A DNA stretch of 64,000 nt from Aurantiacibacter luteus (GTDB lineage Bacteria > Pseudomonadota > Alphaproteobacteria > Sphingomonadales > Sphingomonadaceae), in NCBI RefSeq assembly GCF_001010945.1, contig NZ_LBHB01000001.1, positions 372,001 through 436,000 of the forward strand. The letters run 5' to 3'. Below, in pieces: positions 40,632 through 61,625 of the stretch. The stretch's first letter is position 1. Every line of letters starts with the position of its first letter. The notes beneath the pieces were generated by a model. That model was not told where the DNA came from, made no database searches, and was given only the letters and a program-made list of their open reading frames with translations. The position numbers were made by a program, and so were the translations under genes.

Positions 40632-40758
40632 TTCTGGCTATGGCCGCCGCCGCCGGCTTGGCAAGAGCGAGCCGGGGGAAACGCACGGGATTGTGTTTGA
40701 ACCGGCGCGCGCTTTGCGCGAAAGGCGCATCTGAAACCATCCTGACGGGGAATCGCCC

Positions 40759-42081: not shown

Positions 42082-42091
42082 GTTTTCGCCA

Positions 42092-43015: not shown

Positions 43016-43189
43016 GGAGAACGGCGCGGCGATTCGCGGGGATCGGGCGGTCACACGGCGGACCCGCCCATTGTGTTGCGCCGCAGCAACAGCGCTCAGG
43101 GGAATCGCACTGGCGGTGTTGGTTTCCTCTGAAAATTCCCGCCCCCCGCTCGACGAGTCTTGGAATCGTCACGCAGTTAAGTCTTAGGC

Positions 43190-43212
43190 AGCCGCAGCGC
43201 CGCCCTGCGGCT
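43190..43212 (+). other. Hairpin in the 5' leader of the TonB receptor gene
   Basis: AGCCGCAG (43190-43197) pairs perfectly with CTGCGGCT (43205-43212) over a 7-base loop, 43 bp before the receptor ATG. It lies within the 240-bp leader and is not followed by a U-tract, so it is unlikely to be a terminator. It could affect mRNA stability or translation; no riboswitch class is recognised. Confidence 0.5.
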
Positions 43213-43255
43213 TCTCGCCTCCACACTTCGTCTCACGACAAGGGATCGTCCTGAC

Positions 43256-46690: not shown

Positions 46691-46712
46691 TTGCAGTGTA
46701 ATGCGTTAAGGG

Positions 46713-46748
46713 AAGGGGCGGCTGCACCGGACGGTGTGGCCGCCCCTT
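46713..46748 (+). terminator. Rho-independent-type terminator after the TonB receptor
   Basis: AAGGGGCGGC (46713-46722) pairs with GCCGCCCCTT (46739-46748), extended inward by CACC/GGTG, then TTTCGATT and CTCTTTT. It follows the receptor stop by 23 bp and precedes the 5'-nucleotidase ATG by 29 bp. Confidence 0.78.
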
Positions 46749-46777
46749 TCGATTCTGCTCTTTTGGAAAGCGCGACG

Positions 46778-48430
46778 ATGACCGCCAGGCTCCTTCCCAT
46801 CCTGCTTGCCGCTTCCACCCTGTCGGCCTGCGCCACCGCGCCCGCCGCCGGTCCGGTCGAGGTGCAATTGCTCGCCATCAACGATTTCCACGGCAACCTG
46901 GAGGTGCCGCAGTCGAGCGAGAGCTGGCTCGCCGAGGACGGCACCGAGCGCCGCGAGCGCGTGGGCGGGGCGGCGCGGCTGGCGGCGGCGCTGGCTGCGC
47001 AGCGGCGCACCAATTCGCTTACCGTGGCGGCGGGCGACCTGATCGGCGCCAGCCCCCTGACATCGGCGTTGTTCCTCGACGAGCCCAGCATCAAGGCGCT
47101 CTCGCAGATGCGGCTCGACGTCGCCTCTGTCGGTAATCACGAATTCGACCGGGGCACCGCCGAACTGCGCCGGATGCAGGCGGGCGGATGCGAGCGCTTC
47201 ACCCGGCGTGACCCCTGTGCGCTCGAGCCCTTTGCGGGTGCGGGGTTCGATTACCTCGCCGCCAACGTGGTCGCCGAAGACGGCACGACGCTGTTCCCCG
47301 CCACGGCCATGCGCGAGGTCGGCGGGGCGCGGATCGGCTTCGTCGGCATGACGCTGGAGGGCACACCCGGCCTCGTTGCCGACAGCGCGACGGCGGGCTT
47401 CCGCTTCCTCGACGAGGCCGAGACCGCCAATCGCCACGCACGCGAACTGCGCGCCGCCGGGGCGGATGCGGTCGTGGTGCTGATCCACCAGGGCGGCGAC
47501 ATGGAGCCGCGCTTCAACCTCGGTCCGTGCCCTGCCATCAGCGGCGACATCGGCGAGATCGTCGCGAGGCTCGACCCCGCCATCGACCTCGTCGTTTCCG
47601 GCCACACCCACCGCGCCTACGTGTGCGAGGGCACCAATGCCGCGGGCGGGCGGGTGCTGCTGACATCGGGCGGGCGCTTCGGCGGGTTCCTGACAGACAT
47701 TGCGATGGTCGTGGACCCGGCTGCGGACCGCGTGCTCTCCGTCACCGCGCGCAACCTGCCGGTCGACGGCAGCGCGGGCGAGGATGCAGATGTCGCCGGC
47801 ACGGTCGCTGCCTACGTCGCGGCGGCCGGCCCAGTGGTGAATCGCGCCGTGGGCACGATCACGGGCGAGCAGGTGTTCGATCCGGACTGCGGCGACACCC
47901 CTGCGCAGGATTTCATCGCCGACGCCTATCTCCACGCCGGCCGCGCCGCGCTGGGCGAGAGCGTGGACCTCGCGCTGGTCAATTCCGGCGGCGTGCGCTC
48001 GCAACTGGCAGGCGCGGCCGACGGCGTTCTGAGTTATGGCGAGCTGGCGCAGATGGCGCCGTTCAACAACGGGCTGATCGTGCTCGAGATCACCGGTGCG
48101 GACCTTGCCGCCGCGGTACAGCAGATGATCTGCGACGACGAGATCTGCGACTCCGTTCTCATCCCGTCGGCAGGTGCCGCCATTGCCATCGGCGAGGGGC
48201 GGGCGGTGCTGAGCCTCGACGGCCAGCCGCTCGATCCTGCGCGCCGCTATCGCCTCGTCACCAACAGCTTCCTCGCCGGCGGCGGCGACGGGTTTACCCG
48301 GCTGAAGGACGCGCGACAGGTGGCCAACATCGGTTTCGATATCGAAGGTATCGAGGCCTATGCCGCCAGCGGTCCGCTGACCGTGCCGACCTGCGGCCGG
48401 GTCCGCGGAACACCAGCCGCCGACCTCTAG
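46778..48430 (+). CDS. 5'-nucleotidase/bifunctional metallophosphatase lipoprotein
   Basis: A 550-residue outer-membrane or periplasmic lipoprotein: STLSACAT is the lipobox with Cys about 20 residues from the start. The metallophosphatase domain has NDFHGNLE, VGNHEFDRG and VSGHTHRAY, and the C-terminal 5'-nucleotidase domain contains VNSGGVRSQL and FLAGGGDGFT. It should hydrolyse extracytoplasmic nucleotides to nucleosides and phosphate. The ATG at 46778 with GGAAAG upstream is chosen because it is the start of the lipoprotein signal. It is convergent with AMP nucleosidase. Confidence 0.93.
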   Translation: MTARLLPILLAASTLSACATAPAAGPVEVQLLAINDFHGNLEVPQSSESWLAEDGTERRERVGGAARLAAALAAQRRTNSLTVAAGDLIGASPLTSALFLDEPSIKALSQMRLDVASVGNHEFDRGTAELRRMQAGGCERFTRRDPCALEPFAGAGFDYLAANVVAEDGTTLFPATAMREVGGARIGFVGMTLEGTPGLVADSATAGFRFLDEAETANRHARELRAAGADAVVVLIHQGGDMEPRFNLGPCPAISGDIGEIVARLDPAIDLVVSGHTHRAYVCEGTNAAGGRVLLTSGGRFGGFLTDIAMVVDPAADRVLSVTARNLPVDGSAGEDADVAGTVAAYVAAAGPVVNRAVGTITGEQVFDPDCGDTPAQDFIADAYLHAGRAALGESVDLALVNSGGVRSQLAGAADGVLSYGELAQMAPFNNGLIVLEITGADLAAAVQQMICDDEICDSVLIPSAGAAIAIGEGRAVLSLDGQPLDPARRYRLVTNSFLAGGGDGFTRLKDARQVANIGFDIEGIEAYAASGPLTVPTCGRVRGTPAADL

Positions 48431-48433
48431 CGC

Positions 48434-49888
48434 CTAGCGCAGCGGCGGCTCGTCGAAACTGCGCAGCTTGCGGCTGTGCAGGCTGTCGCCCTGTTTGCTG
48501 AGCAGGCCGAGCGTCTCAATGCCGATGCGCAGGTGCTGGCTGACCGACTTCTCGTAAAAGGCGTTGGCCTGGCCGGGCAGCTTGATCTCGCCGTGGATCG
48601 GCTTGTCCGACACGCACAGCAGGGTGCCGTAGGGCACGCGGAAGCGATAGCCCTGCGCCGCCACGGTGGCCGACTCCATGTCGATGGCGACGGCCCGGCT
48701 CTGGTTGAAGCGCAGCGCCGAGCGGGTGTAGTGCAGTTCCCAGTTGCGGTCGTCGGTGGTGACGACGGTGCCAGTGCGCAGACGCCGCTTGAGCACCTCG
48801 TCCGGTTCGCCCGTGACCTTGCGCGCCGCCTCGTACATCGCAGTCTGCACCTCGGCGATGGGCGGGATGGGGATCTCCGGCGGGATCTCGGCATCGAGCA
48901 CGTTGTCGTCGCGCAGGTAGGCGTGGGCGAGGACGTAGTCGCCGATGGTCTGGCTGGGGCGCAGGCCGCCGCAGTGGCCGATCATCAGCCAAACCTCGGG
49001 CCGCAGAACCGCGATGTGATCGCAGATGGTCTTGGCGTTGGACGGACCGACGCCGATGTTGACGAGCGTGATCCCCTCGCCGTTGGCACCCATCAGGTGG
49101 TAGGCGGGCATCTGGTGCTTGCGCCAAGTTCCCGCCGCCACCTGCGCGCGCGACTGCTCGCGGTCGCCGCGTTCGAGCAGGATGCCCGGCGCCGAGAAGC
49201 GGTCGAACCCGCTTTCCTTGTCGCTCAGGGCGTCGAGCGCGAAGTCGATGAACTCCTCGACGTAGCGGATATAGTTCGTGAACAGCACGTAGCGCTGGAA
49301 ATGCCCCGCCGGGGTGCCGGTGTAGTGGCGCAGGCGCGCGAGGCTGTAGTCGGTGCGCGGCGCATCGAACAGGGCGAGCGGGCGCTTGCCGCCGGGCATC
49401 AGCGTCCAGGTGCCGTCGGCCACCTCGTCGCCGATGTTGGCGAGGTCGGTGGAGGGGAAATGCCGCACCAGCTCGGCGCTGGAAAGGCCCTGCACGTCCA
49501 CACCCGACCCGTCGAGCACGTATTGGTAGGGGATTTCCGCCGAGGAAGTGCCGACCTCGATCGTCACGTCGTAGTCGGCGACGAGATGGCTCAGCTGCTC
49601 GTGCAGGTAGGCGCGGAACAGCGCGGGGTCGGCGATCGACACGCTGTAGGTGCCGGGCTGGTTCAGCCGCGCATAGGCCCGCGCCGGATGGCCCCGCGCA
49701 CCGTCATCGGCATAGTGCAGGGTCAGGGAGGGGTATCCGAACTGCCGGCCCGAACGCGCATCGGCGGCCGGCGGCGTGCGGTCGTCGGCAAAGCGCCGCA
49801 GCGCCTCGACGAGGTTCTGGCGCGAACGGTCGTAGGTCGCCTCGAGCCGGTCGAGGATGGCGTCGATATCGGAAACTGTCGTGGTCAT
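48434..49888 (-). CDS. amn: AMP nucleosidase
   Basis: A 484-residue cytoplasmic enzyme that splits AMP to adenine and ribose 5-phosphate. An N-terminal regulatory domain (about 1-175) precedes a phosphorylase-like catalytic domain: VNIGVGPSNAKTICDH, MIGHCGGLRPSQTIGDYV and AIDMESATVAAQGYR. SDKPIHGEIKLPGQANAFY is typical of Amn. It is convergent with the 5'-nucleotidase gene with a 3-bp gap. Confidence 0.95.
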   Translation of the reverse strand: MTTTVSDIDAILDRLEATYDRSRQNLVEALRRFADDRTPPAADARSGRQFGYPSLTLHYADDGARGHPARAYARLNQPGTYSVSIADPALFRAYLHEQLSHLVADYDVTIEVGTSSAEIPYQYVLDGSGVDVQGLSSAELVRHFPSTDLANIGDEVADGTWTLMPGGKRPLALFDAPRTDYSLARLRHYTGTPAGHFQRYVLFTNYIRYVEEFIDFALDALSDKESGFDRFSAPGILLERGDREQSRAQVAAGTWRKHQMPAYHLMGANGEGITLVNIGVGPSNAKTICDHIAVLRPEVWLMIGHCGGLRPSQTIGDYVLAHAYLRDDNVLDAEIPPEIPIPPIAEVQTAMYEAARKVTGEPDEVLKRRLRTGTVVTTDDRNWELHYTRSALRFNQSRAVAIDMESATVAAQGYRFRVPYGTLLCVSDKPIHGEIKLPGQANAFYEKSVSQHLRIGIETLGLLSKQGDSLHSRKLRSFDEPPLR

Positions 49889-49945
49889 GTGTGGGTCTAG
49901 CGCAAGGTTGGCATTCTGGCGAGCGGCAAGCGGGCGGCAGGGCGC

Positions 49946-50767
49946 TCAGCTCTCGGCAAACACCCAGTCGAGGTAGGCGGCGAGGCGCACGCCCGATTGC
50001 AGCAGGCGGTGCTCGACGGTCGGGGCCCACTGCCAGTTGTAGTCGTAGCCGAGCCGCACCGGGGCCTCCAGCGTGCCCATGCCAAGCTCGGGCCCGTAGG
50101 CGGGATAGAGCTCCTCGCGCAGCGCCACGCTCTCGTCGATCCATGTGGCAGGCGTGGGGGTCCACCAGGCCAGCACTTTGCCCGGCGTCAGGCGACCTTC
50201 CAGCCGCTCGGCATATTCGCTGAAGCTGAGTTGCTGGCGCAGGATCATGCCCTCGTCCCACACCCAGTGCAGGTTGGTCTGCTGACCGAACCAGTCGACC
50301 CGCACGTCGTTGCCGCCGCGGTCGCCGGGCTGCCCGGCGTGGAGCGGCATGTGCAGGTCCGATACGAGGTGGACGACGAAGCGCAGTGCCAGCTGCCGGT
50401 CTTCGGGAGAGGCATTCTCGTCGCGAAGCACGGCGGTGAACTGCTCGAGCGCGGTCAGCGCGTCGCCTTCCGCCGGATGCTCGATGTCGATGGCGCGGGT
50501 GCCGTCGGGCAGGGTGACGTAATGCCAGGGCGAGGCAGTTCGCTGCCAGAACTCGTCGGGGTTTGAGCGTTCTTCATCGGGAAAGGTGCTCGCCTCCGCC
50601 AGGCTCTCGCCCCCGATGATGCCGGCGATCTCGGCGCGGGTGCGGCCGGATATCTCGTGCTCGGCGATGGTGGCGGTTACGCGGTGGCCGGTCGGCCCCC
50701 AGGCTTGTGCGGGAACGGCGAGGGCCAGCAGGCCGCCGGTGACGATGGATGCGAATGTGCGCTGCAT
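49946..50767 (-). CDS. Secreted S1/P1-type nuclease
   Basis: A 273-residue zinc nuclease with a signal peptide ending PAQA; the mature protein begins with Trp, which binds zinc in this family (WGPTGHRVTATIAE). Other ligands are in TFPDE, ASPWHYV, HLVSDLHMPLHAG and NLHWVWDEG. Such enzymes degrade single-stranded DNA and RNA to 5'-mononucleotides outside the cytoplasm. It is divergent from virB2; 84 bp separate the starts. Confidence 0.92.
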   Translation of the reverse strand: MQRTFASIVTGGLLALAVPAQAWGPTGHRVTATIAEHEISGRTRAEIAGIIGGESLAEASTFPDEERSNPDEFWQRTASPWHYVTLPDGTRAIDIEHPAEGDALTALEQFTAVLRDENASPEDRQLALRFVVHLVSDLHMPLHAGQPGDRGGNDVRVDWFGQQTNLHWVWDEGMILRQQLSFSEYAERLEGRLTPGKVLAWWTPTPATWIDESVALREELYPAYGPELGMGTLEAPVRLGYDYNWQWAPTVEHRLLQSGVRLAAYLDWVFAES

Positions 50768-50851: not shown

Positions 50852-51220
50852 ATGTTCGAGACGACCGCCAACGCGCAACCGATTGCCGCCGCGATGGGCT
50901 GGATCGTGGACGTGTTGCTGGGAGAGGTTGCGGCGACGCTGTGCGTCATTGCGATCGCATTTGTCGGCTATTCGATGCTGACCGGCCGACTCGCGATTCG
51001 TCGCGGGGCGCAGGTCGTGCTGGGTTGTTTCGTCCTGCTGGGGGCACCCGCCATCGCGGCGGGCATGGTCGGCCTGTGGGAGCCGGAAGGGCGTGCGGCA
51101 CGCTCGGCGGTCGTGGTCTACGAAGCCCGACCGCGCGGCGAGCTCGTGCCATCCGGTTACAGCCCATACCTCGCTCCCGAGCCTGTGCCCGCACCGCAGG
51201 AGACCGGCACCCCGCCTTAG
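50852..51220 (+). CDS. virB2: TrbC/VirB2-like pilin of the type IV secretion locus
   Basis: A 122-residue protein with two hydrophobic helices (LCVIAIAFVGYSML and VVLGCFVLLGAPAIAAGMVG) separated by a basic turn GRLAIRRG, the layout of VirB2/TrbC pilins. It has a longer, Pro-rich hydrophilic tail than most pilins (about 75-122) and no obvious long leader. It starts the co-directional secretion block but is 3 kb from virB3, separated by the YbjN-like, collar and peptide genes. Identity rests on topology and context more than on sequence. Confidence 0.7.
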   Translation: MFETTANAQPIAAAMGWIVDVLLGEVAATLCVIAIAFVGYSMLTGRLAIRRGAQVVLGCFVLLGAPAIAAGMVGLWEPEGRAARSAVVVYEARPRGELVPSGYSPYLAPEPVPAPQETGTPP

Positions 51221-51307
51221 GCCTTGCTGACCGGCGCCATGGCGCGCGGGCGATTGCCAAGCCTTATGGCGGACTTTAACGCGAATTATCGCATAGCGGA
51301 GGGGCGT

Positions 51308-51868
51308 ATGATGAAGCATCGTTTGATTACCGGAGTTTGCGCACTGGCATTCACGCTGATCGGATCGGGTGCATCGGCTCAGACGCGCCCTGTCGACAGC
51401 ATCGACCAGACCGAAACGCTGGCCTCGCTCGGTCCGTCAGCCGTCCTGCCCGCGCTGTCGGTGGCGACCGCGAATCAGGTTGTCGAAGTGCAAGCTGACG
51501 GCACGCCCTTCGTCAGCGCCACGGCGTCGAACGGACTTTTGATGCAGATGTATTTCACCGCGTGCGACGATGGCGGGCAGACGGGGTGCAAAGGCATGTC
51601 GATCGTATCCGTCTGGCCGCGTGTCGCGGAGGAAACCGTTCCGGCCGTGGCGGCGGCCACACGCAGTTTCCTGCTCGACCACCCGCTGGCCAACGCGGGG
51701 CAGTTCGACGACAACAGGCCCTATTTTTCACGCTACGTTATCGCCGACTACGGGATTGCGCAGGGCAATCTTCTCTCCGAATTTTCGAATTTCATTCGCG
51801 GGGCGACCGAGTTTCACAATATGCTGGCGGGTATCGAAGGCGGGCTGGGAGCTCCGGACGCGCAGTGA
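51308..51868 (+). CDS. Secreted YbjN-like protein within the T4SS locus
   Basis: A 186-residue protein with a signal peptide ending near GASAQ (about 24). The mature domain resembles YbjN (a type III-chaperone-like fold): QADGTPFVSATASNGLLMQMYFTAC, seen here in short as DGTPFVSA and LMQMYFTAC, then ADYGIAQGNLLSEFSNFI. Two close cysteines (CDDGGQTGC) could form a disulfide in the periplasm. YbjN-fold proteins are often chaperone-like; here it may assist the collar proteins or the machine, which is inference from position. The ATG at 51308 or 51311 has GGAGGGG upstream. Confidence 0.6.
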   Translation: MMKHRLITGVCALAFTLIGSGASAQTRPVDSIDQTETLASLGPSAVLPALSVATANQVVEVQADGTPFVSATASNGLLMQMYFTACDDGGQTGCKGMSIVSVWPRVAEETVPAVAAATRSFLLDHPLANAGQFDDNRPYFSRYVIADYGIAQGNLLSEFSNFIRGATEFHNMLAGIEGGLGAPDAQ

Positions 51869-51995
51869 GGGCGGAGCGCAGCGCTAGCTGCGGAAGAAAA
51901 AGTCGTTCGAGTTGCCAGATTGAAATTTAACGATTAACCAATCTGCAACAGACCGAAACGACTCGCTCGTTTTGGCAAACCTTGGGGGGACACTC

Positions 51996-52607
51996 GTGAA
52001 AGCTTCTGCTCTTTCCGGCGCCGCGATTCTCGCTCTGGTCGCGGCCAGTGCTTTTCCGGCCCCGGCGCAGGCGCAAAACTCGTTCGTTGGGCAAATTTCC
52101 CTTTACGCGAATTCCTTCTGCCCTCGGGAGACGGCAGAAGCGAACGGGCAGCTTCTTGCTATCTCTACAAATGACGCGTTGTTCTCGCTTTACGGCACGA
52201 CCTACGGAGGGGATGGAATTACGACGTTTGCCCTTCCCGACCTCCGGGGCCGAAGGGCTATCGGGGACGGGCAGGGGCTTGGTCTTTCCGCATACTCTCT
52301 GGGTCAGCGAGCAGGCACGGAGACGGTCACACTCACCCTGGCTCAAATGCCTGCTCATAATCACGTCGGGGCCATGCGGGCATTCCCCGTCGATGGATCG
52401 ACGACGCAGCCCGTGCGCAATTTCATCGCTCGGGCGAGCGCCGGGGCAAATTCGTACAGTTCGGATACGACATCGCTTGTGGACATGAATGCAGGTTCGG
52501 TGAGCCTGATGAACACCGGTGACGGGCAGCCGCACGAAAACCGGTCCCCCTACCTTGCGATGCGCTGGTGCGTCACCTTGTTTGGAATCTATCCATCGAG
52601 GGACTGA
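51996..52607 (+). CDS. Secreted phage tail collar-domain protein, copy 1
   Basis: A 203-residue protein with a Sec signal peptide (cleavage near PAQAQ, about 27) and a tail-collar (short-tail-fibre, gp12-like) domain: FSLYGTTYGGDG, FALPDLRGR and the PAHNH histidine motif. It ends SPYLAMRWCVTLFGIYPSR. It is the most divergent of three tandem copies: CPRETAEANGQLL replaces the usual CPRGWA. Two conserved Cys (near the N-terminus and near the end) suggest a disulfide. GTG start at 51996 with GGGGGGA upstream. Base composition is lower in GC than the virB genes. May be a tip adhesin or exported effector. Confidence 0.82.
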   Translation: MKASALSGAAILALVAASAFPAPAQAQNSFVGQISLYANSFCPRETAEANGQLLAISTNDALFSLYGTTYGGDGITTFALPDLRGRRAIGDGQGLGLSAYSLGQRAGTETVTLTLAQMPAHNHVGAMRAFPVDGSTTQPVRNFIARASAGANSYSSDTTSLVDMNAGSVSLMNTGDGQPHENRSPYLAMRWCVTLFGIYPSRD

Positions 52608-52646
52608 CCTTTCGATCTGTGTCGCCACGGTGCCTTGGGAGCTGAC

Positions 52647-53264
52647 ATGAAAAACGTCCGAATTATTGCGGCAACTGCCCTGGCGCTTTGCGGGGCAGCT
52701 TTGAATCCCGTTCCCGCCTTCGCGCAGGCTAATCCATATATCGGGCAGGTCGTGCTGACCCCGTATAATTTCTGTCCTCGAGGTTTCGCATCTGCGCAGG
52801 GTCAGATCTTGTCCATTTCGCAGAACACTGCGCTTTTCTCGCTCATCGGGACGACCTACGGGGGCAACGGACAAACGACGTTCGCCTTGCCAGACCTTCG
52901 CGGCCGCACGCCGATCGCGCAGGGTCAGGGCCCCGGCTTAACTCCGTATCCTTTGGGTCAACAAGGCGGTGTCGACCAGGTAACGCTGACTGTTTCGCAG
53001 ATGCCTGCCCATGGCCACACCGGGACGCTGCGTGCCGCTTCTGCTGCGGGTAGCACCAATCAACCAGTGCGCAATATATTCGCCCAGGGTACCACTGACC
53101 GCGAAACCTACACAGCCAGCGCGACTGCACCCACGAACTTCATGGACCGCAACGAGCTGAATGTTTTCTCCGCGGGCAGCAGCCAGCCGCACACGAACAA
53201 CTCGCCCTATCTTGCGTTGCAATGGTGCATTGCGCTTGTCGGCATCTATCCTTCGCGGCCGTAA
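52647..53264 (+). CDS. Secreted phage tail collar-domain protein, copy 2
   Basis: A 205-residue paralogue of the neighbouring genes with a signal peptide ending PAFAQ (about 27) and the same motifs: NFCPRGFA, FSLIGTTYGGNG, FALPDLRGR, PAHGH and WCIALVGIYPSR. The stretch between the His motif and the SPYL end (about 130-180) varies among the copies, as expected for a receptor-binding region. ATG at 52647 with GGGAG upstream; 39 bp after copy 1. Probably co-transcribed. Confidence 0.83.
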   Translation: MKNVRIIAATALALCGAALNPVPAFAQANPYIGQVVLTPYNFCPRGFASAQGQILSISQNTALFSLIGTTYGGNGQTTFALPDLRGRTPIAQGQGPGLTPYPLGQQGGVDQVTLTVSQMPAHGHTGTLRAASAAGSTNQPVRNIFAQGTTDRETYTASATAPTNFMDRNELNVFSAGSSQPHTNNSPYLALQWCIALVGIYPSRP

Positions 53265-53312
53265 TCGCCGCGGTCGGTCCCAATGTTCTTCCGGGCTAGC
53301 GAGGTTTCAAAG

Positions 53313-53933
53313 ATGAAAGTTTCCGCATTCTTGGCAACCTCGGCCCTCGCGGTGAGTGCAATGCTCGTCCCGGCGGCTCCTGCAAGCGCGCAGGCTGACG
53401 AACCCCTCCTCGGCCAACTGATGCTGGTCGGTTATAATTTCTGTCCGCGGGGATGGGCGCAGGCCAGCGGTCAGCTGTTACCAATAAGCCAGAACTCGGC
53501 GCTCTTCTCCCTTCTCGGTACGACTTACGGCGGCAATGGAACGTCGAATTTCCAGCTTCCCGATCTGCGGGGCCGTGCCGCCATCGGGATCGGTCAGGGC
53601 CCCGGTCTCGCTGACCGGGTCCTCGGTGAGCTGGGCGGCGTGGAGACAGTGACCTTGTCGCTGGCCCAATTGCCGAGCCACACCCACGTCGGCGGAGTGC
53701 GAGCCTTTCCGAGCGTAGCGACCACCACCGATCCGGCCGGCAATTACCTTGCCCAGGCGGCCGGAGGAAACCTCGCCTACGCGGCGAGCACGACCGCGCC
53801 GACGAATTTCATGAACCCGGAAACCGTCAGCGTGAGTGGCGCCGGTGGCTCGCAAGCGCATAGCAACCTGTCGCCCTATCTCACGCTCAAGTGGTGCATT
53901 GCGCTTCAGGGTATCTTCCCCTCGCGCAATTGA
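53313..53933 (+). CDS. Secreted phage tail collar-domain protein, copy 3
   Basis: A 206-residue paralogue with a signal peptide ending near ASAQA (about 28) and the most family-like sequence of the three: NFCPRGWAQASGQLL, FSLLGTTYGGNG, FQLPDLRGR, PSHTH and WCIALQGIFPSR. The same two conserved cysteines are present. ATG at 53313; it is 48 bp after copy 2 and 46 bp before the small peptide gene. Confidence 0.83.
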   Translation: MKVSAFLATSALAVSAMLVPAAPASAQADEPLLGQLMLVGYNFCPRGWAQASGQLLPISQNSALFSLLGTTYGGNGTSNFQLPDLRGRAAIGIGQGPGLADRVLGELGGVETVTLSLAQLPSHTHVGGVRAFPSVATTTDPAGNYLAQAAGGNLAYAASTTAPTNFMNPETVSVSGAGGSQAHSNLSPYLTLKWCIALQGIFPSRN

Positions 53934-53979
53934 TAGCCTTGCGCGGATTTCTTGCACTCTTTCGATTACGAGGATTGAT

Positions 53980-54120
53980 ATGACCGTCTCCGAACCCATC
54001 GCCAAGGCGACCTGGCAGACCCCTGTTCTGGTCGAACTGGACCGCGAAACCAGCGATATCGAGAACGGCTACGCATTCGGAACCGACGGCAACGGTGGAT
54101 TCTCCACCTCGATGAGCTGA
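53980..54120 (+). CDS. Small peptide, possible RiPP-like precursor or pilus-associated peptide (46 aa)
   Basis: A 46-residue frame with ATG at 53980 and GAGGA 5 nt upstream. The first half (to about 28) is acidic with WQTPVL, close to the aromatic-x-x-P-x-L motif of lasso and other RiPP leaders, then ELDRETSD; the second half is Gly/Ser/Thr-rich (GYAFGTDGNGG, FSTSMS). If cleaved before the Gly at about residue 30, an Asp would stand at position 7 of the core, but the usual Thr near the leader end is absent, and no cyclase, protease or PqqD-like gene is in the window. It sits between collar copy 3 and virB3, so it may instead be a structural or export peptide. Confidence 0.6.
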   Translation: MTVSEPIAKATWQTPVLVELDRETSDIENGYAFGTDGNGGFSTSMS

Positions 54121-54195
54121 TCTGTCGCTGGCCGGCGAAGTTTATCTCCCGGCGGCGGGTGGCACGCAGCGGGACAAACGGATCGGTAAGGCTCG

Positions 54196-54483
54196 ATGGC
54201 GGAACAACTGCGCAGCGATACCCTGTTCGTGGCTCTCACTCGCCCGCAGATGTTCGCGGGCGTGACCTATAGCTATTTCGTTATCAATGCGATTGTCGCG
54301 GTCGAACTGTTCCTGATCTTCAAGAGCTTCTGGGTCCTGCTCGTCGCGCTGGCGATTCACCTTTTCGGGATGATCGTCTCGCTGCGTGAACCGCGCATCG
54401 TCGATCTCTGGCTGACCCGCGTGCGCTACTGCCCGCGGGTCAGGAACCACGATTACTGGCAATGCAATTCCTATCGCCCGTGA
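54196..54483 (+). CDS. virB3: T4SS inner-membrane protein VirB3
   Basis: A 95-residue protein with a cytoplasmic start RSDTLFVALTRPQMFAGV, which is the VirB3 signature, and two adjacent hydrophobic helices (YFVINAIVAVELFLIF, VLLVALAIHLFGMIV), ending with the VirB3-like EPRIVDLWLTR. It overlaps virB4 by 22 bp. VirB3 joins VirB4 at the base of the machine. Confidence 0.88.
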   Translation: MAEQLRSDTLFVALTRPQMFAGVTYSYFVINAIVAVELFLIFKSFWVLLVALAIHLFGMIVSLREPRIVDLWLTRVRYCPRVRNHDYWQCNSYRP

Positions 54484-56840
54484 AGCGTAGCCGGGGCGAA
54501 CGGGCACGCCGCGAGGTGCCTGCCGGCATTCACCTTCCCTATGCCAGACACCTCGACGAAGCGACGCTCGAAACCCGCGACGGGTTGCTGCTGCAGACGA
54601 TCCGGATCGGCGGCTTCCACTTCGAGACGGCCGACAGCGAAGAGCTGAATTATCGCACGGAACTGCGCGACGCGATGCTGCGTGCCCTGGGCAATTCGCG
54701 CTTTGCCGTCTATCATCACGTCGTGCGCCGCCGCGCCGACGTGGCGCTGGATGGCGAACACCGCGATCGTTTCTCGCAGGGGCTCGATGCCCGCTGGAAG
54801 CAACGGCTGGCGGCGAAGAACCTCTACGTCAACGACCTCTTCCTCACCATCGTGCGCCGCCCGCTGCAAGGCCGCATCGGGATCGCCGAACGGGCGGGCA
54901 ACTGGTTTACCCGTGGTTCGAGCCGCAATGCCGCACTGGTCGCGGCGGAACTGCACGCGCTGCACAACGCCTGCTCGGCAATGGTCTCGGCTCTCCGGCA
55001 ATACGACCCGCGGGTGCTGACCACCTATGAAACGGCCGACGGCATGCGGTCGGAGCCGCTGGAATTTCTCTCCCATCTCTACAATGCCGACATGCGGCCG
55101 GTCGAGGTGCCGCATGGCGACATGGGCAGGCACATACCTGCACGGCGTATAAGTTTCGGTGCCGATACCGTCGAACTCGCACCCTCCGGTTCCTTGTCCC
55201 GCCGTTTCATCGCGCTGGTATCCATCAAGGATTACCCGGGCCGCACGATGCCCGGCATGTTCGACGAACTCTACCGCCTGCCCTTCGAGATGGACGTGAC
55301 GCAGAGTTTCGCCTTCGTCGAGCGCGCGGCGGCGCTGGGGCGGATGAATCTCGCCCTCCGGCGGATGCGCTCCGCCGAGGACGAGGCGCTTAGCCTGCGT
55401 GACGAGCTGGTGACGGCAAAGGACGAAGTTTCCGCCGGCCGTGCCGGTTTCGGGGAGCATCACACCACGATCGCCATCCATGCGGACGACCTTCGCCGGC
55501 TGGACGCGCAAGTGGCGGAGGTCATCGCACTGCTCGCCGACCTGGGGATCGTCGCCGTGCGCGAGGACCTGGCGTTGGAGCCGACGTTCTGGGCGCGCTT
55601 TCCGGGCAACTTCAAGTACATCAGCCGGCGCGGGCTCGTCTCGACGACGAATTTTGCCGGTCTTGCAAGCCTGCACAGCTTTCCCACCGGCCGGGCGCGC
55701 GGCAACCACTGGGGCGATGCGGTGACGCTTTTCGAAACCACGGCGGCGGGACCGTACTTCTTCAACTTTCACCAGCGCGACCTCGGCAACTTCACGATCA
55801 TCGGGCCTTCGGGCAGTGGCAAGACGGTGGTGATGAACTTCCTCCTCGCCCAGGCGCGGAGGTTCGATCCGCGCATCATCTTCTTCGACAAGGATCGCGG
55901 GGCCGAGCTATTCATCCGTGCGATCGGTGGGCAATACGACAGGCTCTCGTCAGACCGCGCCTCCGGTCTCAATCCGTTGCAACTGGAGGATACCCCCGCC
56001 AACCGTCAGTTCCTGATCGACTGGCTGGCCTTATTGGCGGGCGGCGCCGACGAAGCGGAGCTCCAGCAGATCCGCGATGCCGTGGACACCAGTTTCTCGC
56101 AGCCGCCTGAGCGCCGGAGGCTGCGCTACATCGTCGAGTTGTTCCGCGGCGGCGCGCGCCCTCACGCACGCGATCTTCATGCGCGGCTGCGACCGTGGTG
56201 GGGGGAGGGCGAGCGCGCCTGGCTGTTCGACAACGAACGCGACACCACCGACCTCGACGCCCAGGCTGTCGGTTTCGACATGACCGCGATCCTCGACGAT
56301 GCCGCCGCGCGCACTCCGGCCCTCATGTATTTCTTCCATCGCGTGGAGCAGCGGCTTGACGGCACCCCGGCGATCATCGTCGTGGACGAAGGCTGGAAGG
56401 CGCTCGACGACGAGGTTTTCGTGCGCCGGATCAAGGACTGGGAAAAGACCATCCGCAAGCGCAACGGCATCGTGGGTTTTGCGACGCAAAGCGCACAGGA
56501 CGCGCTCGAGAGCCGCATAGCCAGCGCCATCATCGAGCAGGCGGCAACGCAGATTTTCATGATCAACCCCAAGGCCAGGGCCGAGGATTACATCAACGGC
56601 TTCGGTCTTACCCGTCACGAATTCGATCTCGTGCGGACCATGCCCGACGAATCCCACTGTTTTCTCATCAAGCACGGCAACGACAGCGTCGTCGCCCGGC
56701 TCGACCTCACCGGCGAACGCGACTTGCTGACCATCCTGTCGGGCCGCGAGAGCACGGTGCGCCTGTTCGACGAAGTGGTCGCGCAGACCGGTCCCGATCC
56801 GGCGCGATGGTTGCCCCGTCTGCTCGAACGCGCGGCCTGA
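54462..56840 (+). CDS. virB4: T4SS ATPase VirB4
   Basis: A 792-residue AAA+-type ATPase at the cytoplasmic base. The N-terminal CagE/TrbE/VirB domain (about 1-430) is followed by Walker A GPSGSGKT (448-455) and Walker B IIVVDEGW (about 638), with ATQSAQDAL as a sensor segment. VirB4 powers pilus assembly and substrate passage. The start lies inside virB3, and the stop overlaps virB6 (TGATG). Confidence 0.95.
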   Translation: MQFLSPVKRSRGERARREVPAGIHLPYARHLDEATLETRDGLLLQTIRIGGFHFETADSEELNYRTELRDAMLRALGNSRFAVYHHVVRRRADVALDGEHRDRFSQGLDARWKQRLAAKNLYVNDLFLTIVRRPLQGRIGIAERAGNWFTRGSSRNAALVAAELHALHNACSAMVSALRQYDPRVLTTYETADGMRSEPLEFLSHLYNADMRPVEVPHGDMGRHIPARRISFGADTVELAPSGSLSRRFIALVSIKDYPGRTMPGMFDELYRLPFEMDVTQSFAFVERAAALGRMNLALRRMRSAEDEALSLRDELVTAKDEVSAGRAGFGEHHTTIAIHADDLRRLDAQVAEVIALLADLGIVAVREDLALEPTFWARFPGNFKYISRRGLVSTTNFAGLASLHSFPTGRARGNHWGDAVTLFETTAAGPYFFNFHQRDLGNFTIIGPSGSGKTVVMNFLLAQARRFDPRIIFFDKDRGAELFIRAIGGQYDRLSSDRASGLNPLQLEDTPANRQFLIDWLALLAGGADEAELQQIRDAVDTSFSQPPERRRLRYIVELFRGGARPHARDLHARLRPWWGEGERAWLFDNERDTTDLDAQAVGFDMTAILDDAAARTPALMYFFHRVEQRLDGTPAIIVVDEGWKALDDEVFVRRIKDWEKTIRKRNGIVGFATQSAQDALESRIASAIIEQAATQIFMINPKARAEDYINGFGLTRHEFDLVRTMPDESHCFLIKHGNDSVVARLDLTGERDLLTILSGRESTVRLFDEVVAQTGPDPARWLPRLLERAA

Positions 56841-58057
56841 TGAGTTGCCCGCAAATCCTGACCGGCAGCGAATTCGTCAGCCGTCTAGTAGATCACATCG
56901 ACTGCCAATCGCGCTATCTTGGCAGCTATGGGTACGAAGCGCTGGGGCAGCCCGGCTCGCTGGCGGCAGTGGCGATGTCGGCGCTGCTGACCCTCTTCGT
57001 GGCGATATGGGGCCTCCGACTCCTGTTCGGCTCGACCATGCCGGACGGGCGGGACATGGTGGGCGGCCTGCTGAAAATCGGCATCGTCCTGACGCTGGCC
57101 TTTTCCTGGCCGGCCTTTCGCACGGTCGTTCACGACCTGACACTTGACGGACCGGCGCAGATCGCCGGCACGCTCGCCAATCCCGGGATCGCCACGACAT
57201 CGAGCAATTTCGTCGATCGCCTTCAGAACGTCGACCAAGCCATGCTCTCGCTCATAGACGTCGGCACCGGGCGCTGGTCGGATCGCTTCCTGCAGGGGCA
57301 GGCCGGCAACTCCAGTTTTGCCGGATCCGCCTTGCAGGACGACAGTGCGCTCGGCTGGGCGCGTCTTATCTATCTGGCAGGCATCATCGGCTCGCTAGGT
57401 CTGCTGCGGCTGCTTGCCGGACTCCTGCTGGCGCTGGCTCCGCTGGCTGCGGGTCTGTTGCTGTTCGAGGCGACGCGCGGCATATTCTCCGGCTGGCTGC
57501 GGGCCCTCGTGCTCACCCTGCTCGGAACGATCGGGGTCACGGTGATCCTCGCCGTCGAACTCGCCGTGCTCGAGCCATTTCTGCGCGATGCCTTTTACGT
57601 GAGGTCGAGCGGGTTTGCAGCGCCGAGCGCGCCGATCGAGCTGTTCGCCATGGTCGGCGGGTTCACGCTGGTGCAGTTCCTCACGATCTGGCTTCTGGCG
57701 AAGGTCGCCTTCATGCGCGGCTGGAGCGATACCGTTCGGCTTCCTGACTTCGTTACGGCAAATGGCGCAGTGCCCCAGCCAACATGGCGGCCCGCGCCGG
57801 ACCGGGTTTCCGCACCTGCGCGCGCGGATCGCATCGCCACGCAGATCGAGAACAGGATGAGGTTCGAGCAAGGCCGCGTCGCGCGCGTGCCTGCTGCGCC
57901 CGGCATTTCGCCGGCGACCGGGTTTGATTCGAGAACCGGCAAGGGGGGCGTCGGAAATGGGGGCGACGCGCGTGTGCAACTTCCCCAAAGGTTGGGAAGC
58001 TCCTATCGCCGGACCGCACATTCGCGCTCCATGTCGAGCCGCAGGAGGGATGGGTGA
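56840..58057 (+). CDS. virB6: T4SS polytopic inner-membrane protein VirB6
   Basis: A 405-residue protein with several transmembrane helices (about 40-65 VAMSALLTLFVAIWG, 80-95, 185-225 SLGLLRLLAGLLLALAPLAAGLLLF in part, 235-260 and 280-300). The arrangement and position fit VirB6/TrbL, which forms part of the inner-membrane channel. It has a long Arg/Gly-rich hydrophilic tail (about 320-405). Start overlaps the virB4 stop; the end overlaps the virB8 start. Confidence 0.88.
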   Translation: MSCPQILTGSEFVSRLVDHIDCQSRYLGSYGYEALGQPGSLAAVAMSALLTLFVAIWGLRLLFGSTMPDGRDMVGGLLKIGIVLTLAFSWPAFRTVVHDLTLDGPAQIAGTLANPGIATTSSNFVDRLQNVDQAMLSLIDVGTGRWSDRFLQGQAGNSSFAGSALQDDSALGWARLIYLAGIIGSLGLLRLLAGLLLALAPLAAGLLLFEATRGIFSGWLRALVLTLLGTIGVTVILAVELAVLEPFLRDAFYVRSSGFAAPSAPIELFAMVGGFTLVQFLTIWLLAKVAFMRGWSDTVRLPDFVTANGAVPQPTWRPAPDRVSAPARADRIATQIENRMRFEQGRVARVPAAPGISPATGFDSRTGKGGVGNGGDARVQLPQRLGSSYRRTAHSRSMSSRRRDG

Positions 58058-58782
58058 CCGCACAAGGCTCCCTGGACGACGATTTCGACTTCGCCGACAC
58101 CTGGGCGACCAGCGTTACCGACGAGCTGGAACGCTCGCGCCGCATCGCCTGGATCGTGGCGACCGTGGCTGCCGCAATAGCGCTGCTCCTGGCGATCGCG
58201 ATCGTGGTGATGCTGCCGCTCAAGACGACCGAGCCCTACACCATCCTGGTGGATCGCCAGACGGGCAACGTGGAGACCCTGGCGCCTTTCGACGAGGATC
58301 TGGTGGCGGCCGATGCCGCGCTGACGCGGTCCTTCCTCGTGCAGTATGTCATTGCGCGCGAAGGCTACGATTACCCGGATCTCCAGGAGGATTTTCGCAA
58401 GGTTTCCCTGTGGAGCGCGGGGGAGGCGCGACAGCGCTATGACCAGCTGATGCGGGCCGGTCAGGCGACCAGCCCCGTCGTCCTCTACGGCCGGGACACC
58501 CGTGTGACGGCCGAAGTTCGCAGCGTGTCCTCGCTCGATCAGAACCGCGCACTGGTGCGTTTCTCGACGGTGCGTTCCGACCGCGGCGGCCAGCCCGGCG
58601 TGGCGCAGCACTGGGCCGCCGTGATCGATTTCGAATTCAGCGCCGCAGGAATGAGCGAGCAGGACCGGTATCTCAATCCCCTCGGCTTCCAGGTCACGCG
58701 CTATCGCCGGGATGCGGAAACGCTGCCCGAAGCGTTGCCGAGCGAAATTCCCGCTGAGCTGCAGGTGGACGCGCCAGCGTGA
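58054..58782 (+). CDS. virB8: T4SS periplasmic scaffold VirB8
   Basis: A 242-residue bitopic protein: short cytoplasmic tail, one transmembrane helix (about 30-53, IAWIVATVAAAIALLLAIAIV) and a periplasmic NTF2-like domain. EPYTILVDRQTGNVETL and NPLGFQVTRYRRDAE are VirB8 segments. GTG start overlaps the virB6 TGA (GTGA). Confidence 0.92.
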   Translation: MTAQGSLDDDFDFADTWATSVTDELERSRRIAWIVATVAAAIALLLAIAIVVMLPLKTTEPYTILVDRQTGNVETLAPFDEDLVAADAALTRSFLVQYVIAREGYDYPDLQEDFRKVSLWSAGEARQRYDQLMRAGQATSPVVLYGRDTRVTAEVRSVSSLDQNRALVRFSTVRSDRGGQPGVAQHWAAVIDFEFSAAGMSEQDRYLNPLGFQVTRYRRDAETLPEALPSEIPAELQVDAPA

Positions 58783-59480
58783 GGATCGCGGTCGCTCTCG
58801 CCCTGCTCATGGTCGCATCGGGCGCGCAGGCGCAGGTCGTACCGGACATCCCGCTCGACAATCCGCGCCTTCAGACGGTGACGTGGTCGGAGGGCGAGGA
58901 AGTTCTTTTGACGGTCATGCCGCCCACCGGGCTCACGGTCATGTTCGAACGCGGCGAGCGTATCGAGCGCATTTCGCTGACGGACCAGGCCGCCTTCCAG
59001 GTTCGCGTGTCCCCCGATGGCGACAGCATGCTGGTTCTGCCGCTCGTCGACAGCACCACGACACAGATGCAGGTCGAGACGGATCGTCGCAGCTATCCCT
59101 TCACCGTGCGCACGGGCACCGGCCTGACCGCGGCCTATCTCGTCCGCTTCGCCTATGACGGCGCGGAACTCGCTCCGCTGCGTGCGGTGGAGTCAGCGGC
59201 GGCGGACGGCCCAAGATGGTCCTATCGTATGCGCGGAGATGCGGTCGTGCGCCCGGCGGCGATCCGTGACGATGCGCGGCGAACCTACATAACTTATGGT
59301 CCGGAACAGGCCCTCCCCGCAGTCTTTGCCGTCGGACCAACGGGGGAGGAGGAGATGGTCAACGGTTACATGCGCGGCGACACCTACGTGATCGATCGGG
59401 TCTATGGATCCCTCGTCTTCAGGCTCGACGAGGAACGGGCCACTGCCACCCGCAACGCCGCGCCGGACGCCGCGCAATGA
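58779..59480 (+). CDS. virB9: T4SS outer-membrane core protein VirB9
   Basis: A 233-residue periplasmic protein with a signal peptide ending GAQAQ (about 19). The C-terminal domain (RTYITYGPEQALPAVFAV and the late NGYMRGDTYVIDRVYGSLVFRLD) is the VirB9/CagX signature that binds VirB7 and VirB10 in the core complex. No VirB7 lipoprotein is seen, so the partner is missing or unrecognised. GTG start overlaps virB8. Confidence 0.92.
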   Translation: MRIAVALALLMVASGAQAQVVPDIPLDNPRLQTVTWSEGEEVLLTVMPPTGLTVMFERGERIERISLTDQAAFQVRVSPDGDSMLVLPLVDSTTTQMQVETDRRSYPFTVRTGTGLTAAYLVRFAYDGAELAPLRAVESAAADGPRWSYRMRGDAVVRPAAIRDDARRTYITYGPEQALPAVFAVGPTGEEEMVNGYMRGDTYVIDRVYGSLVFRLDEERATATRNAAPDAAQ

Positions 59481-60523
59481 CCCCTCGCACGGATCCGATG
59501 GACGGCGACCAGATGCCGGTGGTTTGCACCGGCGTGCGCGGCAATTACGGCCTGTGGGCGTTTGTCGCCGTACTGCTGGTGGGCGGAGCATGGCTGTTCG
59601 CAACGCTGAACGCGGCGCGCGAAGCTTCGCAGTCGCCGTCGACCTTTGCTACCGGGCCTGCAGAAGGGCTGATTTCCTCGCCCCCGCCGCTCGTCGTGCC
59701 GCCAGACGCACGGCGGCTGCCGCGGGAAGTTCGGGACAGCGGTCCGGTCATGCTGCGCGAAGTACCGGGTTCGGCGTTTGCGCCGCCGCGATATCCTGTG
59801 CCCGGCCCTCCGCCGCCACAGCCCAGCGCACCCTACGTCGCTCCGTATCAACCGCCTGCCGAGCCGCCGTTGATTCTGAGCGATGTGCCCACTCCGCCAA
59901 GCAGCGATCGCGGTTTCGAGCGTGCTTTCGATCCCGCGCCCACCGCTCCGGATACCGGAAATCGCATATCGGCCGTGCGGCTTGCCAATCCCTCCTTCAC
60001 CGTCCCGCAAGGCACGATCATTCCAGCCGTACTGGAGACCGCCTTCGATTCGACACGGCAGGGAAGGGTGCGCGCACTCGTGCAGCGCAACGTCTACAGC
60101 TTCGACGGTACGCGGGTGCTCATCCCGCGCGGAAGCCGGCTTTTCGGTGAATACGGGGCGGGGATCGCCCCGGGCGAACGCCGCGCCGAGATCAACTGGA
60201 CACGACTGATGCGGCCCGACGGGGCGACCATCGCGCTGGATTCCCCGGCCGCCGACCCGCTTGGACGCGCCGGCGTGGAGGGCGAGGTCAATTCGCGCTT
60301 TCTTGCCCGCTTCGGAAATGCACTGCTGCAGACCGTGCTCGACATCGGTGCCGGCCTTGCCACGCGGTCGTCGTCGGACGGGGTAATCGTCGCTTTGCCC
60401 GGCAGCACCCAGAACATCTCCGGCAATGCCAACCAGCCGCGCCCGGTGCTGGTGATCGACCATGGGACCAGCGTTTCGGTCTACGTCGCGCGCGACCTCG
60501 ACTTTTCCTCCGTCGATCGCTGA
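59477..60523 (+). CDS. virB10: T4SS core-complex protein VirB10
   Basis: A 348-residue protein with one transmembrane helix (about 25-45, LWAFVAVLLVGGAWLF), a Pro-rich periplasmic span (about 65-150) and a C-terminal TrbI-like beta-barrel domain (GTIIPAVLETAFDSTRQG, IPRGSRLFGEY) that spans to the outer membrane. ATG overlaps the virB9 stop (ATGA). Confidence 0.94.
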   Translation: MTPRTDPMDGDQMPVVCTGVRGNYGLWAFVAVLLVGGAWLFATLNAAREASQSPSTFATGPAEGLISSPPPLVVPPDARRLPREVRDSGPVMLREVPGSAFAPPRYPVPGPPPPQPSAPYVAPYQPPAEPPLILSDVPTPPSSDRGFERAFDPAPTAPDTGNRISAVRLANPSFTVPQGTIIPAVLETAFDSTRQGRVRALVQRNVYSFDGTRVLIPRGSRLFGEYGAGIAPGERRAEINWTRLMRPDGATIALDSPAADPLGRAGVEGEVNSRFLARFGNALLQTVLDIGAGLATRSSSDGVIVALPGSTQNISGNANQPRPVLVIDHGTSVSVYVARDLDFSSVDR

Positions 60524-60535
60524 GCGGGAAGGAGC

Positions 60536-61513
60536 ATGGCGGACGCCGGTTACTACCTCGACAACTTCCTCGCGCCACTGGAACCCTGGCTTTCGCGCGC
60601 CGACATCACCGACATCTGGATCAATCGCGAAGGCGAGGTGTGGTTCGAGAGCACGGGCGGGGTGATAGAGTGCGAAAGCGTGGACCGGCTCGACGAAGCG
60701 ACGCTTGGTCGCCTGGCACGGCAGGTGGCCGCCCACTCCGCCCAAGGCATAAGCCGGGCGCAGCCCTTGCTGGCGGCGACCTTGCCCGATGGATCGCGTA
60801 TTCAGATCGTCGCGCCGCCTGCAACCCGGCGCGGTCACATCGTCGCCATCCGCAAGCACGTCGCGCCAGAGCTGTCGCTCGACCAGTGGAGCGAGGCCGG
60901 CGCATTCGATGGTCTGGGCTCAGGCGAGGCACGGCTCGAACACGCAGTCAGCGATAGACTGGTGGGCGCAGGCGAGGCACCTGCCGTCTTGCGCGAGGCG
61001 GTGCGGGCCAGGCGCAACATCCTTGTTGCTGGCGGAACCTCCAGCGGGAAGACCACCTTCCTGAATGCGCTTCTGGCCGAAATTCCCCCTGAGGAACGCC
61101 TCGTCCTGATCGAGGATACGGAAGAGTTGCGATTGCGGCACGAAAATGCGGTCGGCCTTATCGCTGCCCGGGGATCGGAGAGCGAAGCGCAAGTGAGCGC
61201 CGAGGACCTGCTGATCGCCGCGCTGCGACTGCGACCGGACCGCATCATTCTTGGCGAGCTGCGCGGCAGCGAGGCGTTCACGTTTCTGCGCGCGATCAAC
61301 ACCGGCCACCCCGGATCGATGACGACCATCCACGCCGACACACCTGCGCGGGCGATCGAGCAGTTGGTGCTGCTGGTCCTGCAGGCCGGTTCGCGCCTGG
61401 GCCGCGACGACGTGCGCCATTACGTGCGCGAAAGCGTGGACGTGTTCGTGCAACTCGGCCGCGAGGGTGGCCGGCGCAAGGTTTCGCAGGTGATGGTGGC
61501 GGAACGGGTCTGA
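60536..61513 (+). CDS. virB11: T4SS traffic ATPase VirB11
   Basis: A 325-residue hexameric ATPase of the secretion superfamily. An N-terminal domain is followed by Walker A GGTSSGKT (165-172), Asp box LIEDTEELRL, Walker B RIILGELRG (about 240) and the His box GHPGSMTTIHAD (about 263). It switches the machine between pilus and export modes. It is 12 bp after virB10 and closes the locus. Confidence 0.95.
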   Translation: MADAGYYLDNFLAPLEPWLSRADITDIWINREGEVWFESTGGVIECESVDRLDEATLGRLARQVAAHSAQGISRAQPLLAATLPDGSRIQIVAPPATRRGHIVAIRKHVAPELSLDQWSEAGAFDGLGSGEARLEHAVSDRLVGAGEAPAVLREAVRARRNILVAGGTSSGKTTFLNALLAEIPPEERLVLIEDTEELRLRHENAVGLIAARGSESEAQVSAEDLLIAALRLRPDRIILGELRGSEAFTFLRAINTGHPGSMTTIHADTPARAIEQLVLLVLQAGSRLGRDDVRHYVRESVDVFVQLGREGGRRKVSQVMVAERV

Positions 61514-61548: not shown

Positions 61549-61625
61549 TGGTCGGGACGACTGGATTCGAACCAGCGACCCCCACACCCCCAGTATGGTG
61601 CGCTACCAGACTGCGCTACGTCCCG
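61549..61625 (-). tRNA. tRNA-Pro (anticodon GGG)
   Basis: Read on the minus strand: acceptor CGGGACG/CGTCCCG, D arm GCGC/GCGC, anticodon stem CCATA/TGTGG with loop CTGGGGG (anticodon GGG), T arm GCTGG/CCAGT with loop TTCGAAT, discriminator A and encoded CCA. Its 3' end faces the T4SS locus, but I found no attachment repeat. Confidence 0.93.

Follow-up and report, generated by a model that had tools for sequence, protein, structure and literature searches.

We analysed a 64,000-nucleotide stretch of the Aurantiacibacter luteus genome (hereafter the window; contig NZ_LBHB01000001.1, positions 372,001 to 436,000), which carries a type IV secretion system (T4SS) operon at 50852..61513 on the + strand; the genome measures 2.89 Mb in 22 contigs. 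Profile searches confirm the gene order and single direction originally read from the sequence: virB2 (50852..51220; TrbC/VirB2 pilin-like, PF04956, E 2.9e-12), virB3 (54196..54483; PF05101, E 2.8e-27), the ATPase gene virB4 (54462..56840; PF03135, with TIGR00929 over its cut-off), virB6 (56807..58057; PF04610, E 3.9e-17), virB8 (58054..58782; PF04335, E 2.9e-56), virB9 (58779..59480; CagX, PF03524, E 7.4e-35), virB10 (59477..60523; TrbI, PF03743, E 5e-46) and the ATPase gene virB11 (60536..61513; PF00437, E 3.7e-32). The tight spacing also holds: the genes from virB3 to virB10 overlap, and 12 bp separate virB10 from virB11. The Pfam scan of the genes at 50852-61513 gave no match to virB1, virB5 or virD4, and no search was aimed at the very small virB7; at 43256-63734, the Pfam-scanned genes included neither a relaxase nor VirD4.

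Between virB2 and virB3 lies an insert, as the original prediction had it: genes for a predicted secreted YbjN-fold protein, three predicted secreted tail-collar paralogues and a 46-residue peptide, all on the + strand. The YbjN-fold gene (51311..51868) encodes 185 residues from the ATG at 51311, with a longer TTG start possible at 51224. It is followed by collar genes 1 (51996..52607; PF07484, E 5e-21), 2 (52647..53264; PF07484, E 9e-26) and 3 (53313..53933; PF07484, E 1e-24), and by the peptide gene (53980..54120). The intergenic gaps of this region (90, 127, 39, 48, 46 and 75 bp) are looser than those of the virB part. We found zero sigma-70-type promoter matches at the locus against 0.8 expected, and nine terminator-like matches against 3.8 expected, seven of them intragenic. 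Sequence inspection and an in-house heuristic assign Sec-type N-terminal signals to the YbjN-fold protein and the collars. The heuristic was positive for 4/100 VirB4 and 0/84 VirB11 proteins, and also for 83/251 other long genes, 66/76 VirB8 (an inner-membrane protein) and 54/65 VirB9.

The name "YbjN-like" given to the first of these genes holds at the level of fold, with weak support from sequence: Pfam YbjN (PF10722) was found in one of four homologues (best E 3e-4), and the window protein itself has no match. A structural model of the protein (pLDDT 72) retrieved DR_1245 at rank 1 (E 6e-4) and E. coli YbjN at rank 3 (E 8e-3) in Foldseek; chaperones of type III secretion were also among the fold matches. 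Among the loci examined (numbered L; genomes numbered G), homologues occur only beside collars, precursors or virB2 (L047, L050, L067, L011, L157).

The three collars are the only Collar matches in the window genome. A profile built from 15 collars matches the T4 short tail fibre (1ocy, 1pdi), a long tail fibre (8kec) and PHROG tail families, and structure prediction of the collar itself reached pLDDT 50, with no usable model. The proteins share the Collar domain PF07484 with phage short tail fibres such as T4 gp12, but are small, separate and apparently secreted, and no phage genes appear among the scanned neighbours. Three collar domains can also occur in a single long open frame, of 743 residues in G098 (G098:C1:670714-671592) and 507 residues in G046; L014 is listed with them.

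The 46-residue peptide and a distant set of lasso-type enzymes

The small peptide resembles the precursor of a lasso peptide. Its leader contains WQTPVL, an instance of the (Y/W)xxPxL motif of lasso precursors. Next come Ile-Glu and a core of 18 residues, the eighth of which is Asp and the last Ser. Numbered as in PMC10368454, the peptide has Ile at position -2, where Thr or Ile/Val is expected, and Asp8 within core positions 7-9, where Asp or Glu is expected. The main text of that paper shows that Ile(-2) is functional in the lasso leader of the bsf cluster of Bradymonas sediminis, whose kinase BsfK acts on Ser3, and reports Ile/Val(-2) for Sphingomonadales precursors (PMC10368454). Passages of a second paper describe HPr kinase homologues that phosphorylate a C-terminal Ser, and sulfotransferase and nucleotidyltransferase genes in such clusters (PMC8498205). 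In tblastn searches, the window peptide matches three tandem peptides in genome G019 (locus L011; E 1e-8 to 2e-6). Across 11 aligned peptides the Trp, the Pro and Asp8 are invariant, and all have Ile/Val at -2 and a final Ser; the peptide of L157 shows the same features. Pfam, NCBIfam and PHROGs gave zero matches for the window peptide. On these motifs, 53980-54120 likely encodes an Ile/Val(-2)-type lasso precursor. A precursor gene within the insert would tie the whole cassette to lasso biosynthesis, a link that the original prediction had missed.

No match to a lasso B1, B2 or cyclase lies near this precursor, so the joint coding expected of a lasso cluster is missing here. The window genome holds a single lasso B2 gene, which lies within an enzyme set at G000:C1 194.6-201.1 kb (L127), about 225 kb from the T4SS. 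Pfam identified B1, B2 and cyclase in this set; NCBIfam matched a lasso cyclase model (E 4.5e-64) and an HprK-related kinase (E 7e-10), both below cut-off. The remaining enzyme names rest on homology between loci, and that of the sulfotransferase was Pfam-checked on a weak relative in L050. Within the 19 kb examined around L127 we found no plausible precursor or collar.

The same split recurs in A. marinus (L047, genome G149). Its T4SS operon holds a YbjN-fold gene, two collars and a precursor between virB2 and virB3, and an enzyme set orthologous to that of the window (L128, 59-73% identical) lies elsewhere, with no plausible precursor or collar within 18 kb. A third genome of the genus, G178 (L157), has virB2-YbjN-collars-precursor-virB3-virB4, and the order virB2-YbjN-collars-precursor-virB3 is therefore common to all three loci. 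VirB4 is 87% identical between the window and A. marinus. Between A. marinus and G178, VirB2, B3, B4 and B6 are 90-95% identical, against 62% for the YbjN-fold protein and 51% for collar and precursor, indicating that the cassette changes faster than the machine.

Elsewhere, the same parts stand directly with lasso enzymes. In G019 (L011), whose genome has no VirB3 match, the order YbjN-collar-collar-precursor x3 adjoins a complete lasso enzyme set, with genes for a cyclase, an HPr-type kinase, a sulfotransferase, a PqqD-type B1, a transglutaminase-like B2 and an ATP-binding cassette (ABC) transporter. Two further genes adjoin these precursors (L011 4690-6506), which by their look we take to be DUF692/DUF2063 genes of the MNIO type known from ribosomally synthesized and post-translationally modified peptides (RiPPs). 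At L067, the region upstream of virB3 holds genes for a YbjN-fold protein, collars, a cyclase, a precursor, PqqD, a sulfotransferase and a kinase. L130 (Porphyrobacter TH134) encodes a very similar core beside three collars, AsnS, HPrK, SulfoT, PqqD and B2, and seems to continue the broken collar gene of the genome that holds L069. In A. zhengii (L050), a YbjN gene still lies between virB2 and virB3, with PqqD, two precursors and B2 upstream of the T4SS and two collars and a nucleotidyltransferase downstream.

On our reading, to which we assign a probability of about 85%, a lasso cluster has been split, and the insert represents the half with its substrate and accessory genes, borne as a payload cassette by the operon of a T4SS with no virD4 at the locus. 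The closest known systems are the phosphorylated lasso clusters (paeninodin; bsf of Bradymonas sediminis, with Ile(-2); the Sphingobium yanoikuyae type). These share the leader motif, with WxxPxL here in place of YxxPxL, Ile/Val at -2, the ring Asp and the C-terminal Ser, as well as the HPr-type kinase, PqqD-type B1, separate B2, cyclase and ABC gene. In the window genome, by contrast, about 225 kb separate the precursor from the enzymes, and its gene sits within a T4SS operon next to those for the predicted secreted collar and YbjN-fold proteins. The words "collar", "sulfotransferase" and "secretion" are absent from the main text of PMC10368454, and we found no description of a lasso precursor and accessory cassette in a T4SS operon, split from its enzymes, in the literature searched. 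What is likely new here is this arrangement: a probable lasso precursor and accessory cassette built into a T4SS operon, apart from its likely enzymes.

Linkage of collar and lasso genes to the secretion locus

We used the window VirB4 to find orthologous T4SS loci and examined the best 80 of 104 confirmed loci. Collars occur in eight of the 80 (L047, L050, L067, L069, L086, L087, L109, L120), against a chance expectation of about 0.06 (calculated for 870 kb of flanking DNA at ~0.21 collar clusters per genome, with genome size taken as 3.2 Mb). Lasso-type enzyme genes occur in seven (L050, L067, L069, L076, L086, L087, L113; L069 is counted by a nucleotidyltransferase-like gene alone and L113 by B2 alone), and collar or lasso enzyme genes together in 10/80. 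Loci of related species within the 80 are not independent, and the presence of at least five different layouts argues for repeated association of T4SS and collars. A weak collar match in L063 (29%) fell within an RHS gene, was not confirmed by the profile and was left out of the count. The idea that collars and virB genes are linked thus stands among orthologous T4SS loci, where the scan overturned our initial reading of a family survey, that collars and T4SS are unlinked. Viewed from the collar side, the comparison by which the original prediction was to be judged, linkage is the exception: among 149 genomes drawn from the family, 30 have collars, and only the window's collars lie within 25 kb of a VirB3 gene, among the matches listed. 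T4SS and collars are not obligate partners.

Co-occurrence was counted by genome, without tree-based correction. In a draw of 31 genomes of the genus, the window VirB8 marks this T4SS class in seven, and eight have collars: 6/7 T4SS genomes against 2/24 others (one-sided Fisher p 2.5e-4), or 4/5 against 2/20 among the 25 genomes that are at least 90% complete (p 0.005). The genes are linked in four of the seven (the window, A. marinus, A. zhengii and G178); G162 has both, on short contigs, and G176 lacks collars and has RHS genes on both sides of its T4SS. In the family draw, where the class was defined by VirB8 at ≥42% identity, collars occur in 11/25 T4SS-class genomes against 19/124 others (p 0.0025), and in 7/15 against 14/74 with one genome per genus (p 0.029). 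Other VirB3 genes (≥60 bits) show no collar excess (12/56 against 18/93, p 0.46). In this draw, collars are also associated with lasso B2 (21/62 against 9/87, p 5e-4); lasso enzymes lie beside the collars in at least nine of the 30 collar genomes, and among 20 fetched collar loci, seven hold lasso enzyme genes and 13 do not.

Several observations weigh against the split-cluster reading or parts of it. Lasso B2 shows no association with the T4SS class (11/25 against 51/124, p 0.48). In G177, the last of the seven genus T4SS genomes, a distance of 1.7 Mb separates the collars from the T4SS, and the 19 kb surrounding the collars gave no lasso enzyme match. In G019, G082, G086 and G144, collars stand beside lasso genes in genomes with no VirB3 match, so collars do not need a T4SS there. 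The T4SS-linked collars of L086 and L087 have no evident signal peptide, and neither do the collars of L006, L018, L019 and L024, which makes Sec export unlikely in these cases. Besides L128, A. marinus holds another, distinct lasso cluster (L129), which has its own enzymes and its own Thr(-2)-type precursor candidate. In the A. zhengii locus (L050), no cyclase or kinase was found, and the ABC gene belongs to a soluble, two-ATPase type and does not encode an exporter. Lasso cores usually begin with Gly, Ala, Ser or Cys; with Ile at -2 the window core would begin with Asn, which leaves the cleavage register uncertain, and cleavage one residue later would give Gly1, Asp7 and Ile at -3. Finally, two overlapping weak terminator-like matches (5 pairs) separate the peptide gene from virB3, which speaks mildly against a single transcript.

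Some of these data would also suit a different account, in which the collars are a surface adhesin of the T4SS that substitutes for VirB5, and the lasso link is secondary. VirB5 was not found at the locus, the collars follow the T4SS class where lasso B2 does not, and three T4SS-linked collar loci (L047, L109, L120) have no lasso enzyme match in the locus. However, 72 of the 80 T4SS loci have no collar in the flanks examined, many of which were ended by contig ends; lasso enzymes stand beside the collars in the family genomes counted above, and the precursor gene lies inside the cassette itself. We consider a pure adhesin role improbable.

Secreted neighbours and a possible export route

RHS-repeat proteins flank 34 of the 80 T4SS loci, 31 by sequence cluster and three more by motif. 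PF05593 was found in the three RHS proteins scanned, and the C-termini of the RHS proteins vary. The RHS loci include L052, L054, L056, L060, L061, L062, L075, L084, L093, L097 and L107, some with RHS genes on both sides, and most long RHS proteins have Sec-like signals by our in-house rule (26/31). RHS genes occur in 0/10 collar or lasso loci against 34/70 others (cluster and motif, p 0.004), or, by the weaker motif-only detection, in 0/10 against 23/70 (p 0.055); this exclusivity is soft, as the loci are related and many are shortened by contig ends. RHS proteins and collars flank the same T4SS class, and no locus among the 80 examined combines RHS genes with collars or lasso genes. From the 199 long genes in the flanks of the window locus and the 80 loci, 20 P-loop candidates were chosen; of the 16 that were scanned, one matched a VirD4-type coupling protein. 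With RHS in some loci, collars in others and VirD4 rare, this T4SS class looks like one that mostly has no neighbouring coupling gene and whose neighbouring secreted products vary from species to species. The gene virB2 itself varies in position, following virB11 in the orthologous loci of G013, G014, G099 and G114.

The window genome also carries a second, paralogous virB2-virB11 locus on another contig (G000:C11:895000-912000; L026). None of 15 loci of this paralogous T4SS class has a collar or any of six lasso enzyme families.

The scarcity of coupling genes bears on the view that the operon is a conjugative remnant, a T4SS that formerly transferred DNA and now carries the insert as functionless cargo. 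In favour of this view, the VirB genes form a conjugation-type set, and a plasmid carries one of the sister loci (L115). Against this stand the single VirD4-type protein among the 16 candidates scanned, though no relaxase search was made in the flanks of the loci, and the peptide motifs, which are kept across species despite sequence divergence. We regard this view as very unlikely.

A parallel was drawn in the original prediction, with the pertussis ptx-ptl locus, a VirD4-less T4SS with Sec-exported cargo. The idea of Sec cargo beside secretion genes is partly borne out: it fits the secreted RHS proteins at sister loci and the lack of a virD4 at the window locus, where cargo with Sec signals is encoded just upstream and in the same direction, as in ptx-ptl. 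The differences are that the window cargo has no toxin domain by Pfam, that the insert lies inside the virB order, and that export here is a prediction from signals and gene order.

We propose the following model for how the parts may work together. In the cytosol, the precursor would undergo modification and cleavage by the L127 proteins: a PqqD-type B1 as RiPP recognition element, the B2 protease, the HPr-type kinase, the sulfotransferase and the lasso cyclase. The kinase would act on a serine, either the C-terminal Ser as in paeninodin-type peptides or Ser3 as in bsf, and the mature peptide would leave through the ABC transporter of the ~225-kb-distant cluster. The YbjN-fold protein and the three collars would reach the periplasm via Sec, where the former may act as a chaperone. 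The collars may then form a fibre-like receptor binder that is exported or held at the surface by the VirB channel, possibly taking the position of VirB5 at the tip of the pilus, and the lasso peptide would thereby be used on contact with a target cell. Leaving aside the VirB route for the collars, we think this explanation probable, if with clearly less assurance than the identity of the cassette. Export of the collars by VirB, or their retention by it at the surface, is plausible from the gene arrangement, and we put it forward tentatively.

More broadly, this Sphingomonadales T4SS class may be an exchangeable payload platform, loaded with RHS proteins in some lineages and with lasso peptide and collars in others, in which VirB presents the collars and directs the lasso peptide at chosen neighbours; we offer this as speculation and hold it doubtful. 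The usual picture of a lasso peptide is of a product that is released freely and encoded by a compact cluster; here, the likely precursor is encoded apart from its likely enzymes, within a secretion operon and alongside proteins that resemble phage receptor binders in build. Should the parts work together, this would provide a role for the secreted collars and a substrate for a T4SS class whose loci have no coupling gene, and whether a RiPP is delivered or displayed in a contact-directed way could be tested in harmless marine bacteria. Even if they do not cooperate, the split would hide the product from genome-mining rules that seek a precursor beside its enzymes.

The island and its tRNA border

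A gap of 35 bp separates the end of the T4SS from tRNA-Pro(ggg) (61549..61625, - strand), the putative island border, which is followed by secD. In 20 other genomes of the genus, this tRNA-Pro(ggg)/secD site has no T4SS, collar or lasso match (one stretch spans only 8 kb). In L137 and L138, a homologue of window 39.04-39.56 kb adjoins the tRNA, which points to about 22 kb of extra DNA in the window; the island borders (~39.6-61.5 kb) rest on these two loci, the tblastx synteny being noisy. Searching 36.0-61.5 kb for direct repeats of the tRNA end gave none of ≥11 bases and three of 10, as by chance, so integration at the tRNA is unproven.

This setting raises the alternative that the lasso-collar genes and the T4SS are merely island genes that use the same chromosomal sites, such as tRNAs, with no working relation. 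At this very tRNA-Pro(ggg)/secD site, G002 and G091 carry a collar-lasso cluster and lack a T4SS of this class, which supports island traffic and sustains this alternative. The empty site in the 20 other genus genomes also fits it, as do the left neighbours of T4SS and cassette, which differ among L047, L157 and the window. Yet the virB2-YbjN-collar-precursor-virB3 order is identical in these three genomes despite their different neighbours. T4SS and collars co-occur in the family draw, where only the window has them linked, and genomes with other VirB3 genes show no such association; nor does a flanking repeat mark the element. We judge such hitchhiking unlikely, and retain the split lasso cluster within the T4SS operon as the preferred reading.

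Two side observations concern mobility and island content. In G004, G032 and G122, about 9 kb separate a weak VirB3/TrbD-like match from a lasso B2 gene, which suggests that lasso clusters may reside on conjugative elements. Within the window's own island, 39541-50767 encodes a cytidine-deaminase domain protein, a 2-oxoglutarate (2OG) oxygenase and a TonB-type outer membrane protein, together with a 5'-nucleotidase, an AMP nucleosidase and an S1/P1 nuclease, a nucleotide-scavenging set of which two genes have homologues by the T4SS in L157.

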